From Kribbella voronezhensis (GTDB taxonomy: Bacteria > Actinomycetota > Actinomycetes > Propionibacteriales > Kribbellaceae), in NCBI RefSeq assembly GCF_004365175.1, contig NZ_SOCE01000001.1, forward strand, positions 4,843,403-4,907,402: a stretch of 64,000 nucleotides of DNA, written 5' to 3'. Made by a program: the position numbers and the translations under genes. The notes beneath the pieces were generated by a model that saw nothing but the letters and a program-made list of their open reading frames with translations, had not been told where the DNA came from and searched no databases. Shown piece after piece: positions 6,187 through 59,420 of this stretch (positions are counted from its first letter, which is position 1; the number at the start of each line of letters is the position of its first letter).

Positions 6187-7737
6187 GTGACTGAGCATGA
6201 GTTGGTTCTGGTCGTCGACTTCGGGGCGCAGTACGCGCAGCTGATCGCGCGGCGGGTGCGCGAGGCCAAGGTGTACTCCGAGATCGTGCCGCACTCGATG
6301 CCGGTCGAGGAGATGCTGGCCCGGAATCCGAAGGCGATCATCCTGTCCGGCGGACCGCAGTCGGTGTACGCCGAGGGTGCGCCGCGGGTGGACTCGGCAC
6401 TGTTCGAGGCGGGGGTGCCGGCGTTCGGGATCTGCTACGGGTTCCAGGCGATGGCGCAGACGCTGGGCGGCGACGTACGCCGTACGGGACTGCGCGAGTT
6501 CGGGCGGACCCCGGTCACGGTGAGCGAGGCCGGCGCGCTGCTCGCAGGGATCCCCGAGGACCTGAACGTGTGGATGTCGCACGGTGACGCCGTACACGCG
6601 CCGCCGGTCGGATTCGCCGTACTGGCTGCGTCTTCGGGTGCGCCGGTCGCGGCGTTCGAGAACCTGGAGAGCAAGCTGGCCGGTGTGCAGTGGCACCCGG
6701 AGGTGCTGCACTCGCAGGCTGGGCAGGCCGTGCTGGAGCACTTCCTGTACGACATCGCTGGGTGCAGCGGCGACTGGACGACCACCAACGTCGTCGAGGA
6801 GCAGGTGGAGCTGATCCGGCAGCAGGTCGGCGACAAGCAGGTGCTGTGTGCGCTGTCCGGTGGCGTGGATTCGGCCGTCGCCGCGGCTCTGGTGAGCAAG
6901 GCGATCGGCGACCAGCTCACCTGTGTGTATGTGGACCACGGGTTGCAGCGGTCGGGTGAGTCGGACCAGATCGAGAAGGACTTCGTCGCTGCTACCGGCA
7001 CGCGGCTGGAAGTCGTGGACGCGGAGGATCAGTTCCTGGGCGCGCTGGCCGGGGTGACCGACCCGGAGCAAAAGCGGAAGATCGTAGGGCGCGAGTTCAT
7101 CCGGACTTTCGAGGCGACCGCCCGGAAGCTCGACGCTGATCGGCACATCGAGTTCTTGGTGCAGGGGACGCTTTATCCGGATGTCGTGGAGTCCGGTGGC
7201 GGGACCGGTACGGCGAACATCAAGTCGCATCACAATGTCGGTGGGCTGCCCGACGACCTGCAGTTCTCGCTGATCGAGCCGCTGCGGACGTTGTTCAAGG
7301 ACGAGGTCCGCGAGCTGGGGATCGCGCTGGGACTGCCGGAGACGCTGGTTTACCGGCACCCGTTCCCGGGGCCGGGGTTGTCGATCCGGATCATCGGCGA
7401 GGTGACGAAGGAGCGGCTGGAGATCCTGCGGGCGGCCGATCTGATCGCCCGGACCGAGCTGACCGCCGCCGGGCTGGATCGCGACATCTGGCAGTTCCCG
7501 GTGGTGTTGCTGGCTGACGTGCGGTCGGTGGGTGTGCAGGGTGACGGTCGGACCTACGGTCATCCCGTCGTACTGCGGCCGGTCACCAGCGAAGACGCGA
7601 TGACGGCCGACTGGGCCCGCCTGCCCTACGAAGTACTCGAGAAGATCTCTACTCGCATCACCAACGAGGTCGACGAGATCAACCGAGTCACCGTAGACAT
7701 CACAAGCAAGCCCCCGGGGACGATCGAGTGGGAGTAG
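6187..7737 (+). CDS. guaA: GMP synthase (glutamine-hydrolysing)
   Basis: Converts XMP to GMP using ATP and glutamine, the last step of guanine nucleotide synthesis. The N-terminal class I glutamine amidotransferase has the nucleophile in [12 protein letters not shown] and the His-Glu pair in WHPE. The ATP-pyrophosphatase domain has the P-loop LSGGVDSAV, and the C-terminal dimerisation domain ends [11 protein letters not shown], the usual terminus. The length is 516 residues, as expected. I prefer the GTG at 6187 because TACGCT lies six bases upstream, a leaderless arrangement; TTG at 6181 is the alternative. The stop is followed directly by the repeat-rich spacer. Confidence 0.97.
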
Positions 7738-8455
7738 TTCGTACTACGTAGGAGCCGCCCGCCCGGTCGCGGCCTCCTGCGTCGGCCGTCTCCTCCCACC
7801 CTGGACGCTGGCTCCTGCGTCGCAGCTGAGTTACCCGCCCGGTCGCGGCCTCCTGCGTCGGCCGTCTCCACCCACCCCAGGACACCGGCTCCTGCGTCGC
7901 CAGCTCACCTGCCCCGGGGCACCGGCTCCTGCGTCGCTGGTTGGAAGGGCGGTGGGTGCCCGGTGTTGTCGGGGCTGGTGTGGTTGGCGCGCTGGTTGTG
8001 CTTGGCTCCTGCGTCGCCAGCTCACCTGCCCCCGGGCACCGGCTCCTGCGTCGCCGGTCGGAAGGGCGGTGGGGTGCCGGGCGTGCGGTGACGGCCACTC
8101 CGCCGACTGTGTTGTCGGGCTGGTGTGGGTTGGCGTGCCGGTTGGTGCTGGCTCCTCCGTTGCCTCCACCACGCTGGACGCCTGCTGCGGCGTCGCCTCG
8201 CTCCCCCACGCTGGGCGCCGGAGTTCTGCCTCGCTGGCTGTGCCACCCTCGGCGCCCGTTCCTTCGTTGCCGGTGGAGAGGCGGTGGGTACCCGACCTTG
8301 TCGGGGCTGGTGTGGTTGGTGCACCTGTTGGTGCTGGCTCGTATGTCGCCCGTCTCCCTCACACTCGGGCGTCGGCTTCTTCGTTGTCGGTGTAGAAGGC
8401 GGTTGGTGCGAGAGCGTGCGGAGGCCGGTGTTGTGGGGCTTCGTGAAGCTGGTTC
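7738..8455. repeat. Repeat-filled convergent intergenic region (CTCCTGCGTC family, locus 1)
   Basis: 718 bases between the 3' ends of guaA and the anti-sigma-like gene. I see seven exact copies of CTCCTGCGTC on the plus strand (starting at 7774, 7812, 7850, 7889, 7926, 8006 and 8043), mostly spaced 37-39 bases apart, and degenerate relatives near 8152, 8260 and 8350. They lie in longer blocks alternating between GGCCTCCTGCGTCGGCC and GGCTCCTGCGTCGC. Open frames crossing the region consist only of the repeat and are not genes. Confidence 0.85.
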
Positions 8456-9235
8456 CTACAGCGAGAGCTGGACGGTGGCTGTGGTGCCGTCTCGGTAGGT
8501 GACCTGGACGGTGGTGCCTTTCGAGCCGTTGGTCAGGTCGTTGCCGGGGAGCCAGAGGGCGAACTGGCCGCCGGAGACGGTGGCGTTGACCTTTCCGTGG
8601 GTGGGGCTGGTGTAGCTGACCGCGGTGACGTCTGACCCGGCGGCGCCTGCAGCGACCGACAGTTCGTTTCCGTCGATCGAGCCGGTACCCAGCACGAGCG
8701 GGGCGAGGCCGCGGTTGCTCGGGCGGTCGGCCGGGGGAGTCGAGCCGATGGCACCGAAGTACGACCGGAAGAGGTGCTTCGAATCGTCGGTGATGCAGAG
8801 GGCCGAGAAGCCGTCGCGGCCCGCGAGGATCACCAGAGTCCAGGCGCCGCGTCGCTCGGAGATCGCGGTGCCGGCGGACTTCAGCTGATCGGCGTACTCA
8901 CGGCTTCCCGACTTCTGGTGGCTGCGGCAGGAGTTCGCCGCGTCGGCGCGCTTCGATGCCGACATACCTGAGGGCGAACTTGTCCAGCTCGCGAAGGCTT
9001 TGTCGCCGCCGAGTGCTGAAGGGAGTACCAGCGCGGCGACGGTGGCGGCAGCCGCAGTACCCAGGGCGACGGAAACGGCGAGTCGCCGGGTCCGCCGGGG
9101 CGTGGGAGCAGGCAACGCCGGGTCGGTCGCGAGGATGCGTTCGAGGTCGGCGCGGGCGCGGGGTCCGTTCGGGTCGATCTCGCGGTCGGCGGGATCGAGC
9201 GTTCGTAGTACGGGGAAATCGTCCGTGATGTTCAT
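8456..9235 (-). CDS. Anti-sigma-like membrane protein encoded with an ECF sigma factor
   Basis: Protein of 259 residues with a cytoplasmic N-terminal segment (about 1-48), one membrane segment (LAVSVALGTAAAATVAALVL) and a secreted C-terminal domain of about 185 residues ending TVQLSL. It overlaps the sigma-factor stop by four bases (ATGA). This gene order and topology match membrane proteins paired with ECF sigma factors in actinobacteria. The HXXXCXXC zinc motif of classical ZAS anti-sigma factors is absent; two Cys (NSCRSHQ and ALCITDD) are in the extracytoplasmic part. Anti-sigma function is therefore inferred from position and topology. It could instead be an unrelated surface sensor. Confidence 0.75.
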   Translation of the reverse strand: MNITDDFPVLRTLDPADREIDPNGPRARADLERILATDPALPAPTPRRTRRLAVSVALGTAAAATVAALVLPSALGGDKAFASWTSSPSGMSASKRADAANSCRSHQKSGSREYADQLKSAGTAISERRGAWTLVILAGRDGFSALCITDDSKHLFRSYFGAIGSTPPADRPSNRGLAPLVLGTGSIDGNELSVAAGAAGSDVTAVSYTSPTHGKVNATVSGGQFALWLPGNDLTNGSKGTTVQVTYRDGTTATVQLSL

Positions 9236-17077: not shown

Positions 17078-17451
17078 CTTCCTGTGGTGACGGCTGTGAG
17101 AACAGACAGCCGGCCCACTATCTGACGATGGTCCGGCTGGCCGATCAGGTCGTTGCGAGTGTTGCGCGTACCGCAGGGACCCTGCGCGAGCGGTCATCGG
17201 CTGGGCCGGGGTAGCCACGTCGAAGTCGGCGATGAGGGAGCAGACGTCCGCGGGCTGGGGGAGTCAGACGACGCAGGAGGCGCGGCGGGTCTGTATCCCA
17301 GCCGCGACGCAGGAGCCGGCCTGCAGGGTGGGAGGAGTCAGGCGACGCAGTAGCCTGCGACCGGGTGGGCTATTCCAGCCGCGACGGAGGAGCCGGCGTG
17401 GAAGGGTGGGTGGAGACGGCCGACGTAGGAGGCCGCGACTGGGCGGGCGTA
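17078..17451. repeat. Repeat-containing convergent intergenic region (locus 2)
   Basis: 374 bases between the 3' ends of the methyltransferase and the TPR gene. A small hairpin (CGGCTGT at 17091-17097 with ACAGCCG at 17106-17112) may terminate the first. From 17262 to 17451 there are copies of the reverse-oriented core GACGCAGGAG (exact at 17270 and 17306; variants at 17344, 17383 and 17422). The part next to the TPR stop closely matches, in the sense of that gene, the sequence next to the guaA stop at locus 1. No gene is visible. Confidence 0.8.
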
Positions 17452-20103
17452 TCAAGCTTGTAGTTGCTTCTCCAAAGCTTCGGCTTCGGCAGTGCGACCG
17501 AGGGTGCGTAGGCGGTCGGCCAGGAGCCAGCCGGTGCGGTGCCAGGACTCGTCGCCGGTGGGGAGGGTGGTGAAGATGTCCTGGAGCATGGTGGCGTCGG
17601 TGGTGCCGTGTTCGGCGATCAGGAGGCGGGCGTTGAGTAGTTGCCCCTCGAAACCACCGCGTTCGTAGTACTCCGCTGCGTTGCGCGCGTGCTCGACTGC
17701 CTCGCTGATGGAGCCCTGCTGCATCTTCAGCATTGCCAGGTCCCAGTGGATCCCCGCCTGCTGGAAGAGCACGGGCTGCTCGGCAGAGGGGAGCGATTCG
17801 AGTACCGGCCGCGCCCGGTCGAGCAGTTGGTCCACCACGTCGAAGTCACCGGCGTACCGGGCGGACTGTGCAGCCAACCGAACCGCTTGCACGTAAGCGA
17901 GTGGCAGTTCGGCCGCCTCGAAGTGCTCGGCTGCGGTCAGGAAGATGTCGACGGCTTCCTTGTCGCGGTCCATCCGTTCGAGCAGCAGGCCCTCGTCCTG
18001 GCGGAGGTTGCCGAGCCATTGCGGGTGCGCGTCGACCGGTGCCTCGGCGAGCAGGAGGCGTACCTGCGCCAAAGCGGAGTCCAGCTCGCCCAGAGCTCGA
18101 TAGGCATCAACCAGTACGCCGCGTACGTCGGCTTGGAGACTCGCGAGCGACGGATCCCGCAGTACGGGCAGTGCCTCTTCGCCGGTTTCGGCCGCTTCGA
18201 GGGTACGACCGGTGAGCAGGTAGGCGCGAGCGAGTTCCAGGCGACAGATGGCGATGTGTACTTCGGCGTCGGGGGCGCCCGTCGCCAAGGCGATCGCTTC
18301 CTCCAGATCGGCGACGGCCTCGTCCGGCCTGTCCAGGGCGATCCGGATCCAGCCGCGCTGGCGGTACGCGAACGACCTGGGCAGCTCGTGCCTGGCAACG
18401 ACCCCGGCAGTCGCCGCGCTCTCAGCCTCCTCAAGCTGTTCGCGCTGGATCAACAAGTTGCACTGGAGGATCCCCGCGGCCGCGCGCAGGTCGTCCTCCG
18501 TGTCGGGCGCAGCACGGAGAATCGTCAACTCCTGCAGGGATTCCTCGACCCGACCGGCTTGGGCAAGCAGCGTGGCGAGCGAGTACCGCCAGCCTCCCTG
18601 GCGTCGGGGTTCGTCGTTGTCGATCAGCCGGCGCAGCGGTTCCTCACCGGTCGCCAGCGCCTCGTTGATCCGTCCGGCTTCGCCCAGAACCCTTGCGATC
18701 CGGCCGCGGTCGCGCAGGAGCCGGACCTCCTCACCGAGCTCGGAGTACAGGGCGAGCGCCTCACGCCAGGCGTTCACGGCCTCCTCGTCCTGGCCGATCG
18801 ACGACAGGCCACGACCGTCGAGCAGGCGCGCCTGGTCGAGCTTGGTCCGCTCGCTCTCGGGCACTTCGCGCTCGAACGCCTGCCAGGCCGCGATCGCCTG
18901 CTCCCGACGATCGTTCTGCCACTCCTCCTCGGCCCGATCGAGCCAACCGCTGCCGGACGGATCAGGGCCGACGGCAACTTCTTCTACAGCCACAGCCTGG
19001 GCTTTGGTTCGCGCATGGGCACGCCGAGCGGTCTCGGACAACGGCAGGTACTCCAGCCACGGCTCGGCCTCGAGCACAGAGCGGATCTGGTCGCTCTGAT
19101 GGCTGGTCCCGTTCCGTACGTCGAACTGTGCCGCCAACTCCAGCGCCCGCTCCGCCAACTGGGCGGACAGTTCCGCCGACGCGATGTCCGGTTCCTGCGG
19201 ACGCCGGATCATCAGATCGACCCGGCTCAGCGCCAGCGCGGCCGCGGCAGCAAAACGCATCTCGGCGAACGGGCTGGGTGGGTCCGCGAGATCGGTGAGG
19301 TGACGCTCCACCAGTTCGACAGCGCGCGTCTCGTTGCCGGTGCGGGCGCAGAAGAGGACGTGTTCGGCGTATGTCTCCAGCTCGCCCGGGTTGTTGCGCA
19401 GCTTCCGATAAGCCCGCCGATGCGCATCGACGGCCTCCGAATGCATGCCCTCGGCAACATAAGCGGGAAGCAGTGTGGTCAGCAGTTGCTGCGGCTGCTC
19501 GTTACAGGTCAGTTGGCCGTCCAGTACGCCGACCGCGAGCGCCAGCGCGTCGGCCGGCTGCCCGATCTCGATCAGGTGCCGCGCCTTGCCGGTCGGGTCG
19601 CAGCCGATGCAGTCGGACAGGTCGTCGCGCGGCGTGGTCGACCAGAGCCGGAACTCCTCGGCCGCCGCGGCCGCATCGCCGATGTGGTTCGCGACGAGCC
19701 ACCGGTAGTGGTGGACGACCTGCATGCTGTGCCCGCCGGCGCGCCACCTTCGCTCCATGTCGTCCAGTACCGCGTAGGTCTGGTCGAGCGAGACCTCGGG
19801 AAACTTCGCCAGCGTGTTGGGCGTGTACTTGAAGCACCACAGGAACGTGTGCTCGTGGCGCTGAAACTTCCCCGGATCCGCGTCCCAGTCGGCCACACAA
19901 CGCGCGAACGGCACGAGCAGCTTCCGCGGCTCGCCGCCCATCACGTACGCCGTGACGAGCGTGAGCCGCGCGAAGAAGGCCAGCTCTTCGTCGGTGGACG
20001 CGTCCGCCCGGCGTACGACGTCCTCCAGCAAGGCCGAACGCGCTTTCCCGTACGGCGTACTCATCGCGCGGTCGAGTCGCTCGAGCAGGTCGTCGTCGCT
20101 CAT
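17452..20103 (-). CDS. Tetratricopeptide-repeat protein coupled to the Hsp90-family gene
   Basis: Soluble protein of 883 residues made almost entirely of helical TPR-like hairpins. Recognisable units occur along the whole length, for example EAVNAWREALALYSELGEE, EAVADLEEAIALATGAPD and EAVDIFLTAAEHFEAAELP. There are no membrane segments and no catalytic domain that I recognise. A Cys pair (CIGCDP) lies around residue 166. The ATG overlaps the stop of the Hsp90-family gene by four bases, so the two proteins are made together. TPR proteins are the standard co-chaperones of eukaryotic Hsp90, which makes a chaperone-scaffold partnership the natural inference here, although the bacterial protein lacks the eukaryotic MEEVD tail. 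Confidence 0.85.
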   Translation of the reverse strand: MSDDDLLERLDRAMSTPYGKARSALLEDVVRRADASTDEELAFFARLTLVTAYVMGGEPRKLLVPFARCVADWDADPGKFQRHEHTFLWCFKYTPNTLAKFPEVSLDQTYAVLDDMERRWRAGGHSMQVVHHYRWLVANHIGDAAAAAEEFRLWSTTPRDDLSDCIGCDPTGKARHLIEIGQPADALALAVGVLDGQLTCNEQPQQLLTTLLPAYVAEGMHSEAVDAHRRAYRKLRNNPGELETYAEHVLFCARTGNETRAVELVERHLTDLADPPSPFAEMRFAAAAALALSRVDLMIRRPQEPDIASAELSAQLAERALELAAQFDVRNGTSHQSDQIRSVLEAEPWLEYLPLSETARRAHARTKAQAVAVEEVAVGPDPSGSGWLDRAEEEWQNDRREQAIAAWQAFEREVPESERTKLDQARLLDGRGLSSIGQDEEAVNAWREALALYSELGEEVRLLRDRGRIARVLGEAGRINEALATGEEPLRRLIDNDEPRRQGGWRYSLATLLAQAGRVEESLQELTILRAAPDTEDDLRAAAGILQCNLLIQREQLEEAESAATAGVVARHELPRSFAYRQRGWIRIALDRPDEAVADLEEAIALATGAPDAEVHIAICRLELARAYLLTGRTLEAAETGEEALPVLRDPSLASLQADVRGVLVDAYRALGELDSALAQVRLLLAEAPVDAHPQWLGNLRQDEGLLLERMDRDKEAVDIFLTAAEHFEAAELPLAYVQAVRLAAQSARYAGDFDVVDQLLDRARPVLESLPSAEQPVLFQQAGIHWDLAMLKMQQGSISEAVEHARNAAEYYERGGFEGQLLNARLLIAEHGTTDATMLQDIFTTLPTGDESWHRTGWLLADRLRTLGRTAEAEALEKQLQA

Positions 20104-23009: not shown

Positions 23010-24155
23010 ATGCGATGGGCTGGACAGCAGATCGACGCGGAGACCCCGGGGGCACTGCCGGGGTTGGGGTCGATCGCGGGCCTGGTGCGGAGCGTGACGA
23101 CGCCGGAGTTCCGCGGGGTGACGTTCCACGAGGTGGTCGCGAGGTCGGCGCTCAACTCGGTGCCGGGCACCGGGCTGCCGTTCAACTGGACCGTCAATCC
23201 GTACCGCGGATGCACGCACGCCTGCCGTTACTGCTTCGCCAGACCGACCCACCGCTACTTGGAGCTGGATCAAGGCCTGGACTTCGACCAGCAGATCGTG
23301 GTGAAGACCAACATCGCCGACGTACTGCGCCGGGAGCTCGCCAGACCGTCATGGCGCGGCGAGCAAGTTGCCCTGGGCACCAACACCGATCCCTATCAAC
23401 GGGCCGAGGGCCGCTACCGCCTGATGCCCGGCATCATCGAGGCGCTGGCAGACTCCGGTACGCCGTTGTCGATCCTCACCAAGGGCACGTTGCTCAAACG
23501 CGACCTCGCCCTGCTCACCGCGGCCGCCGAGCGCGTGCCGGTCGGAATCGGCATCTCGTTGGCCCTCGGAGACGAAGACCTCCGCAAACGCCTGGAACCA
23601 GGCGTCCCCTCGGTACGCGGCCGCCTCGACCTGATCCGCGCAGTACGCGAGGCCGGCCTGCCCTGCGGTGTGATGGTGGCGCCCGTCCTCCCGTGGATGA
23701 CCGACTCCTCGGATCAGCTCGACGCCTTGCTCGGTGACCTGGCGGACGCCGGCGCGACCGGAGTGACCACGCTCGTCCTGCACCTACGACCCGGCGTGAA
23801 GGAATGGTTCATGGGCTGGCTTGCTCAGGAACGCCCGGACTTGGTGAAGCGCTACGAAGACCTCTACTCCCGCGGCACCAACGCGTCGCCGAGCTACCGC
23901 CGAGCTTTTCAAGACAAGGTTCGTCCATTGCTCGACAAGCACGGCTTCGGATCGTCATCCCGCCACCGCTCCCGCGCCAACAGCACACCGGTAACTCCGC
24001 GCAAGCAACTCGGAATCGTCGACGTCCCGGGCAACGGCTCAGAGTCCGGCTGGGGAGAACCAGACCCCACCCACGCCCGCTTCCGAGGACCCCGCAAGCG
24101 TGCTGCTCCGGTCCCAGCAGTTGGCCCGGATCTCAACCAGGACACGCTTTTCTAG
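23010..24155 (+). CDS. Radical SAM protein, Rv2578c family
   Basis: Protein of 381 residues of the SPL-like/Rv2578c radical SAM group. The [4Fe-4S] cluster motif CTHACRYC has the CX3CX2C pattern, preceded by the family hallmark NPYRGC. NTDPYQRAEGRYRL and SILTKG are further conserved blocks. The start ATG at 23010 gives MRWAGQQID, the form seen in actinobacterial relatives. The group is related to spore photoproduct lyase, so a role in DNA lesion reversal is often suspected, but the reaction has not been established to my knowledge. A perfect LexA box nine bases upstream puts it under SOS control. The gene ends just before repeat locus 3. Confidence 0.9.
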   Translation: MRWAGQQIDAETPGALPGLGSIAGLVRSVTTPEFRGVTFHEVVARSALNSVPGTGLPFNWTVNPYRGCTHACRYCFARPTHRYLELDQGLDFDQQIVVKTNIADVLRRELARPSWRGEQVALGTNTDPYQRAEGRYRLMPGIIEALADSGTPLSILTKGTLLKRDLALLTAAAERVPVGIGISLALGDEDLRKRLEPGVPSVRGRLDLIRAVREAGLPCGVMVAPVLPWMTDSSDQLDALLGDLADAGATGVTTLVLHLRPGVKEWFMGWLAQERPDLVKRYEDLYSRGTNASPSYRRAFQDKVRPLLDKHGFGSSSRHRSRANSTPVTPRKQLGIVDVPGNGSESGWGEPDPTHARFRGPRKRAAPVPAVGPDLNQDTLF

Positions 24156-24507
24156 TACTTCCCACGCACCTCCTACGTCGGTGCTCCCGCCCACCCGGGT
24201 GCGCGGCTCCTGCGTTGCGTGGGGCTTCGAGCGCCCCGGGTGGGCGGTTCGTTGCCCAGCATCCAGCGGGTTGCGGCATCTGGCCAGCCAACTGCGCTTG
24301 CAGCGGCGACGCAGGAGCCGCGTTTCTGGGAGGGTGGGAGCGCCGACGCAGGAGGTGCGTGGGCCTTCGAGCGCCCGGGGTGGGCGGGTTCGTTGCCCAG
24401 CTATCCGGTTGGCGTGCGGCATCCGGCCAGCCGACTGCTTTCGAAAGCGCGACGGAGGAGCCGCGCACCAGGGCGGGTGGGAGCGCCGACGCAGGAGGTG
24501 CGTGGGT
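24156..24507. repeat. Mirror-symmetric repeat region between convergent genes (locus 3)
   Basis: 352 bases between the radical SAM and methionine aminopeptidase stops. Plus-oriented cores CTCCTACGTC (24170) and CTCCTGCGTT (24207) follow the first gene. Minus-oriented cores GACGCAGGAG (24308, 24345, 24488) and GACGGAGGAG (24451) follow the second. The outer segments 24161-24216 and 24450-24506 form a long imperfect inverted repeat. An inner block of about 40 bases, starting with CTTCGAGCGCCC, is directly repeated near 24225 and 24367. No gene is visible. Confidence 0.85.
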
Positions 24508-58559: not shown

Positions 58560-59075
58560 CCCCGGCCGGCTGCCGGGGGTGTGGTGAGGCACCCGGCTGG
58601 TCGCTCGGGGCGCGTGAGGCGAGAGCCGGTCAGTTGATGACTCGGGACCGTGGTGAGGCAAGAGCTACCGGCTGGTGGCTCGGGGTGTACCGCAGCAAGA
58701 GTCACCCGGCTGGTGGCTCGGGGTGTGCTGCAGCAAGAGCCGAGGAATTGATGGCTCGGGTGTGGTGCAGCAAGAGCCGGTCGGGTTGAGGGCTCCGGGT
58801 GTGGCGAGGCAAGAGCCGGCGGTTGGTGGCTTGGGGTGTGGCGAGGCAAGAGCCGGCGGTTGGTGGCTTGGGGTGTGGCGAGGCAAGAGCCGGCGGTTGG
58901 TGGCTTGGGGTGTGGTGAGGCAAGAGCCGGCGGTTGGTGGCTTGGGGTGTGGTGAGGCAAGAGCCGGCGGTTGGTGGCTTGGGGTGTGGTGATGCGAGAG
59001 CCGGCGGTTGGTGGCTTGGGGTGTGGTGATGCGAGAGCCGGTTGGTTGAGGGCTCGGGGCGTGGTGGGGGCCGGG
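58560..59075 (-). repeat. 37-bp tandem repeat array (GGCTCTTGCCTCACC family, locus 4)
   Basis: About 13 tandem units. The seven between 58811 and 59069 keep an exact 37-base period (AAGAGCC or GAGAGCC at 58811, 58848, 58885, 58922, 58959, 58996 and 59033) and are nearly identical; those from 58560 to 58800 are more degenerate. The core GGCAAGAGCC on the plus strand is one base from the GCAGGAGCC core of the other three loci. There are no unique spacers. The 37-base period is not a multiple of three, so open frames here cycle through three readings of the repeat. Confidence 0.92.
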
Positions 59076-59420
59076 TCAGGTGAGGCGGCCGAGGGGGGAG
59101 ACGCTGATGCCGGCGCGTTCGCAGACCCAGTGCGGGTCGGGGCCGAGTTCGGGCTCGATGCGGAGCTCGTGGTCGTTGAGGTCGTCGCAGGCGGTGCAGC
59201 GTGGCCAGCGGAGGCCGGAATCGACCAGGCGGTCCTGCACGTCCTGGGCGACCAGGCCGGCGATGTGCTCGGCGCCGTCGGGCCACTGGTCGAGCCACCA
59301 CTGCCGGCCGGCCACCACGTCCTCGAGCAGGGACACCATCACGGCGTCGTCGAATCCCCGCGCGGCCAGGTCGTGAAGGACCATCGCGCGGGCGGTCAGC
59401 AGGATCCCGGGCTCACTCAT
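59076..59420 (-). CDS. Conserved-looking hypothetical protein, 114 aa
   Basis: I do not recognise the family. The protein is acidic and helical in its first part (ARAMVLHDLAARGFDDAVMVSLLEDVVAG), with a Trp-rich segment (RQWWLDQWPDG). It then carries a likely zinc site: CTACDDL and a later Cys in WVCERAGI. No membrane segment. The ATG at 59420 has AGGG upstream. The 37-bp array begins immediately after its stop, in the same relative orientation as the repeats after guaA and the other genes. Confidence 0.7.
   Translation of the reverse strand: MSEPGILLTARAMVLHDLAARGFDDAVMVSLLEDVVAGRQWWLDQWPDGAEHIAGLVAQDVQDRLVDSGLRWPRCTACDDLNDHELRIEPELGPDPHWVCERAGISVSPLGRLT

Follow-up and report, generated by a model that had tools for sequence, protein, structure and literature searches.

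REP-like composite palindromes built from fixed-loop hairpins between convergent genes of Kribbella voronezhensis

The spacer downstream of guaA and other copies in the window

The window analyzed here is a 64,000-nucleotide stretch of the Kribbella voronezhensis genome (8.03 Mb) with a G+C content of 68%. Near its left end, guaA on the plus strand (stop at 7737), whose product is a GMP synthase according to its Pfam matches, converges with a minus-strand gene ending at 8456, and the spacer between them (7738–8455) is occupied by a plus-oriented repeat array. The original prediction had reported seven exact copies of a core, CTCCTGCGTC, in this spacer, and all seven were recovered on the plus strand, at 7774, 7812, 7850, 7889, 7926, 8006, and 8043, spanning 7774–8052. 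They fall within seven plus-strand hairpin units, located at 7770–7788 (5-bp stem, loop TCCTGCGTC), 7808–7826, 7846–7864, 7885–7903, 7922–7940, 8002–8020, and 8039–8057. Over the whole window, the core with one mismatch was matched 26 times, compared with a mean of 11.5 and a maximum of 22 in 100 shuffles.

The sense RNA of the array had also been described as C-rich and poor in G runs. This holds for ~7738–7918, the first quarter of the 718-nt array, but not beyond it, where G outnumbers C in most 60-nt blocks of the sense strand and the second half of the array is degenerate and G-rich. No U-tract following a stem, the mark of an intrinsic terminator, was found at 7700–8500. The array consists exclusively of plus units, carries 77-nt direct repeats, and has no global fold (z −0.4 versus shuffles), features from which it is read as a putative atypical derivative in which one arm, the left one, would have been amplified in tandem while the remainder decayed.

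Of the four repeat-bearing sites announced for the 64 kb, two further core-bearing convergent spacers were verified, one at 17078–17451 with minus units and one at 24156–24507 with units of both orientations, while the fourth site exists only in diverged form. The first of these spacers contains a single-orientation arm on the minus strand (17222–17442) with five minus loop copies (two exact cores and three with one mismatch), which adjoins the minus-strand gene ending at 17452. The second holds a complete element, made of a left inverted arm on the plus strand (24161–24219), whose 59 nt are complementary at 88% to those of the right arm, an inner hairpin pair on the minus strand (24300–24364), and a right inverted arm on the minus strand (24448–24506), and the whole gap folds into one long hairpin (z −9.7). 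The fourth site is probably a diverged 37-nt tandem array on the minus strand (58561–59080), with about 11 copies of GTGGTGAGGCAAGAGCCGGCGGTTGGTGGCTTGGG and a loop-like TCTTGCCTC suggestive of a diverged offshoot of the family. Here the gap that carries it measures 619 nt, versus 116 and 107 nt in two relatives.

A compensated stem around a fixed loop, paired and inverted

The core is not itself the repeat unit; each copy is a hairpin, with a 5-bp stem around a fixed 9-nt loop, TCCTNCGTC (C-rich strand). In the alignment of copies, CTCCTNCGTCG corresponds to the closing C-G pair and the 9-nt loop, and complementarity at each of the five pairs next to it is seen in 69–88% of the sites, compared with 31% for a sixth pair. 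Among 139 array units, 595 stem cells were Watson-Crick, versus 421 ± 9 with shuffled 3′ arms, and perfect 5-bp stems were present in 67 of the 139 units, versus 11 ± 3 in the shuffles and zero in slid controls. A MAFFT alignment of 45 pairs gave a stem covariation of 0.303 (0.102 ± 0.015 when shuffled), with 89% of the cells paired (slid controls reached no more than 72%) and double changes at 8 of the 10 pairs. The stem is thus maintained by compensatory changes around a fixed loop, which shows selection on the folded form. No Rfam family matched the repeat at or above the gathering score. A first hint that the G-rich strand is the folded one was dropped: otherwise perfect stems contained 26 A-C/C-A versus 4 G-T/T-G mismatches, which would point to that strand, but after de-duplication per locus, with all exact loops, the ratio was 25:13 (p = 0.07).

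The units form head-to-tail pairs with a fixed spacing of 36–41 nt. Between the two hairpins lies a C-rich linker (58% C), mostly CTCCC(G/A)CCCACCC or TCGACCCACCCACCCC, and the pair carries an outer box, CCCACGC or CCCGCTTC. These pairs are in turn arranged as inward-facing inverted arms, the complete element being one palindrome of 0.25–1 kb. The arms measure 299 nt at L094, 160 nt at L116, and 59 nt in the window at 24161–24506 (matching at 91, 88, and 88%, respectively), and complete elements form a single hairpin far better than their shuffles do (z −9.7 and −12.7). In 16 of the 16 gaps with both orientations, all plus units lie to the left of the minus units; six of these gaps are tandem, where gene direction would not predict this order. 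The element ends are often CCCACGC...GCGTGGG, and orthologous sites carry remnants, with no clean target-site duplication seen. Neither the interior nor the length of the element is conserved.

At two loci (L094 and L144), a gene lies between the arms. In the latter (L144:2429–3238), a small Imm1-type immunity gene is enclosed by the inverted arms, and the related genome G014 keeps only the gene end and the right boundary. In another relative, arms 3.3 kb apart enclose two plus-strand genes, one of which resembles MraY by eye (L250, G007:C4:41000–47000). A transposase or shared cargo between the arms was considered and discarded: the passengers are ordinary genes (an Imm1 immunity protein, a PNPOx-like protein, and an SDR), and no transposase lies between the arms in the loci inspected.

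Placement, distribution, and turnover

With up to one mismatch, GGCTCCTGCGTCGCC has 108 sites in the whole genome versus 6 for the reversed control. Enrichment was measured in a sample of 864 kb, made up of the window and 40 blocks of 20 kb at even spacing; 40 further regions were fetched around pattern matches, and genes were called with a purpose-written gene caller, whose stops should be reliable for long genes and less so for small ORFs. In this sample, CTCCTNCGTCG occurs 24.5 times per 10 kb in convergent spacers, 3.4 in tandem spacers, 2.1 in divergent spacers, and 0.08 in coding sequence, whereas its reversed control gave 0.6, 0, 0, and 0.03, respectively. An enrichment after stop codons, proposed as the test of the original prediction, was therefore borne out for convergent gaps. 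The top-enriched 8-mers of convergent spacers are fragments of the hairpin family, and a covariance model found 42 matches in the same sample. At one locus (L098:17164–17937), the element follows a tRNA gene (17215–17296) rather than a protein stop codon, with a short remnant at the G014 site. A further box, GTACTACG, often lies between a terminator and an element; in the sample of this genome (G000), its density in convergent spacers is about six times that in coding sequence (4.0 versus 0.65 per 10 kb).

It had been claimed that the C-rich strand is always in the sense of the preceding gene. This is the case in convergent gaps (39:1 arms, relative to the nearer gene) but not in tandem gaps (19:13, p = 0.38). 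The bias in convergent gaps arises because the arms face inward, the C-rich strand then always being sense to the nearer gene. The sense rule is thus mostly the geometry of inverted arms, and orientation is removed as evidence for a function of the sense RNA. More generally, caution is needed at convergent 3′ ends, where inverted-arm geometry alone can yield a strand bias.

The genome holds about 140 strong copies, with fewer in seven relatives. Across the genus, which is the only one of its family in the genome set, eight genomes gave covariance-model matches, numbering 136 (a lower bound, as at most 138 were scored per genome), 92, 51, 51, 31, 29, 28, and 18, and the other 30 gave 0–1. In a GuaA-gene tree of 30 of these genomes (G028 absent), the carriers included fall in two clades, G031/G029/G018/G000/G014 and G007/G015. 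The Y1/RAYT transposase family (PF01797) is absent from G000 and from 36 of 37 relatives, while the same search was positive in 5 of 14 control genomes. A spread beyond the genus was considered and rejected, the order and class samples giving 0–2 matches per non-genus genome, with dissimilar linkers; so was a phage or plasmid origin, as the arm had no match in plasmids or phages. In 2.9 million viral contigs, there were 21 single pattern matches. The genus member G010, which is free of the family (no significant covariance-model match in a 320-kb sample), was searched for a similar dispersed family of its own, and this too was discarded: its 30 strongest intergenic repeat matches in the 320-kb sample all lie within single loci. 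G010 does carry its own locus-specific intergenic tandem arrays (L254–L269), for example at L267:7149–8420 and L268:9141–9721, which, judged by those strongest matches, share no sequence between loci. The open-access literature that was searched contained no such repeat for Kribbella.

Orthologous intergenic sites were compared in two relatives, G014 (GuaA 99% identical) and G018 (97%). G014 shares the guaA array (863 nt). In G018, the spacer is only 81 nt long and contains an intrinsic terminator together with a fragment, CCCACGCAGC. The site at 24155 of the window measures 352 nt here versus 36 nt in G014, which keeps a remnant of the right unit; in G018, it extends over about 1.9 kb and contains an additional gene next to right arms that have decayed. 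The product of this inserted ORF of G018 (C1, L199–L207 region) looks like a periplasmic-binding-type protein. Two other gaps measure 731 nt (L116) and 421 nt (L130) here versus 81 and 73 nt and 75 and 73 nt, respectively, in the relatives. At L155, the units of G014 belong to different subfamilies and are oriented differently, while G018 is devoid of them, and at L156, G014 has a single chimeric hairpin combining the 5′ arm of the first unit with the 3′ arm of the second, as a result of a deletion between the two loops. Elements thus expand, contract, and are gained and lost rapidly at orthologous sites. The remnants at "empty" sites mean that some of these differences are losses rather than gains, insertions not being separable from them at most sites.

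3′-end formation, competing explanations, and known repeat families

The association of the repeats with 3′ ends, part of the original prediction, was upheld. A sense arm lies within 200 nt of 39 convergent gene ends, and in 26 of them the element begins within 40 nt of the stop; most array-bearing ends have no intrinsic hairpin before the element. At about a dozen of the 39 ends, a strong intrinsic hairpin does precede it, mostly with 50–85 nt of room, and 3′-end formation cannot be the role of the element there. Conversely, at L130 and L159, the entire gap is element on both sides, and G018, which lacks the array at guaA, L130, and L166, has a classical intrinsic terminator at these loci. 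Such element-filled gaps, together with the terminators of the relatives, would place 3′-end formation within the element or close to it, provided that these genes have a defined end at all. The element thus probably often replaces the intrinsic terminator and would form 3′ ends in both directions.

Among known systems, the closest in lifestyle are the REP/BIME elements, which have been reviewed and classified (PMC3733652). REPs lie downstream of genes, frequently between convergent genes, and form inverted dimers (PMC1525189, PMC3733652). The Kribbella family has the broad REP/BIME features, namely short palindromic units of 20–40 nt in high extragenic copy number that are paired and, by inversion, assembled into larger palindromes; it also shares their downstream and convergent location, their patchy occurrence among relatives, and the roles proposed for them in termination and mRNA stability. 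However, here the 9-nt loop is conserved rather than the stem, which is only 5 bp, and the basic module is the head-to-tail pair, an arrangement that is rare in known REPs (PMC3733652), in a genome without RAYT transposase. Unlike GTAG REPs, which are mobilized by RAYT, the family conserves its loop and has neither a GTAG tag nor a RAYT/Y1 gene. With the CGTC REP super-family, it shares an unpaired CGTC, the lack of a dedicated transposase, and the lack of association with transposase genes, but CGTC REPs carry the CGTC tag at one end, 8–9 bp stems starting with A-T pairs, 4–5 nt loops, and a CCA tail (PMC3733652), whereas here CGTC lies inside a 9-nt loop on a 5-bp stem. The family is therefore REP-like in lifestyle and lacks the defining features of both tagged REP super-families. 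The review does not mention Actinobacteria, Kribbella, or Streptomyces (PMC3733652). MITE-type elements, for which the same review names NEMIS and ERIC, are likewise non-coding and intergenic, with long inverted repeats and strong RNA hairpins, but here there is no demonstrated target-site duplication, fixed length, or shared interior, and no parent transposon was found in the loci inspected. Bidirectional intrinsic terminators of convergent genes have the same position and two-sided symmetry and are present in relatives at the same loci, but the family is far larger, consists of repeated units without U-tract, and is dispersed.

We consider it rather likely that the family consists of dispersed, non-coding, REP/BIME-like composite palindromes that spread between loci, often replace the intrinsic terminator, and act as two-way 3′-end formers. 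Some activity would spread or copy the elements between loci; as there is no linked transposase and no demonstrated target-site duplication, and the interiors are not conserved, it is the distribution alone that points to such mobility. The elements would then persist mostly between convergent genes, where harm should be least, and in many loci the resident element may take the place of the intrinsic terminator and form 3′ ends for both genes. The hairpins formed during transcription, together with the foldback of the second arm, could block RNA polymerase or processing exonucleases.

Other explanations were weighed against this one. According to the original prediction, the repeats may be Rho-dependent termination zones, in which Rho would bind the C-rich sense RNA and terminate transcription within the array. 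The C content of the linker, the nearly constant sense orientation in convergent gaps, and the many array-bearing ends without intrinsic hairpin would fit this proposal, but the orientation is explained by the inverted arms and is lost in tandem gaps, and the units are covarying hairpins, whereas Rho prefers unstructured RNA and does not require a fixed loop sequence. Furthermore, the array turns G-rich after about 180 nt, a strong hairpin already stands between stop and element at about a dozen ends, and the family is missing from most members of the genus. Repeat-free convergent spacers have no C>G skew beyond their first 20 nt and thus give no sign of C-rich RNA as a general termination device here. 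With no specific support from these data, Rho-dependent termination appears improbable. The resemblance to the anti-Shine-Dalgarno sequence, offered as another basis for activity, proved weak, since CCTCCTGCG requires a C where the stem is variable, and only two of the seven cores have it. If the repeat were purely selfish or neutral, it would be tolerated nowhere but between convergent genes and play no part in 3′-end formation, the gene ends there being cryptic or processed. This would account for the patchy distribution, the rapid gain and loss, the antisense arms in tandem gaps, and the elements located at some loci downstream of intact intrinsic terminators. We nevertheless regard it as unlikely, because the folded form is under selection, as shown by the compensatory stem changes and the fixed loop, and several gaps are all element, with no other terminator remaining.

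Two further readings start from the structure of the unit. An invariant loop on a freely variable stem is the opposite of ordinary terminators and, with the fixed spacing of the head-to-tail pairs, could make the hairpin an RNA or single-stranded DNA site for a putative partner, such as a hairpin-recognizing mobilization enzyme or an RNA-binding protein. No partner was found, the genome has no Y1/RAYT gene, the repeat has no Rfam family, and an early sign of folding in the G-rich strand was lost once duplicates were removed, which leaves this reading possible but doubtful. Its narrower form, in which the loop would be bound by a genus-specific factor (a non-RAYT mobilization enzyme or a 3′-end factor) and the family would have its own machinery outside the REP family, seems unlikely as well. 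As for the template strand, the linker and the outer box give GGGNGGGNGGG-hairpin-GGG, which might form a G-quadruplex stalling RNA polymerase. The four-run pattern is present in 46 of 76 pairs versus 1.4 in composition-preserving shuffles, which disregard shared ancestry, but the G tract is irregular in one subfamily and the quadruplex appears in just 9 of 60 G-strand folds with quadruplexes allowed, making such a roadblock very improbable.

The best descriptions of REP-like palindromes come from Proteobacteria, and RAYT is the mobilizer known best. The composite palindromes of Kribbella provide an actinobacterial counterpart in which the logic is inverted (fixed loop and free stem), RAYT is absent, and turnover is visible between close species. 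With them, one can ask by what route repeats of this kind spread, and whether 3′-end formation passes to them when they displace a terminator.
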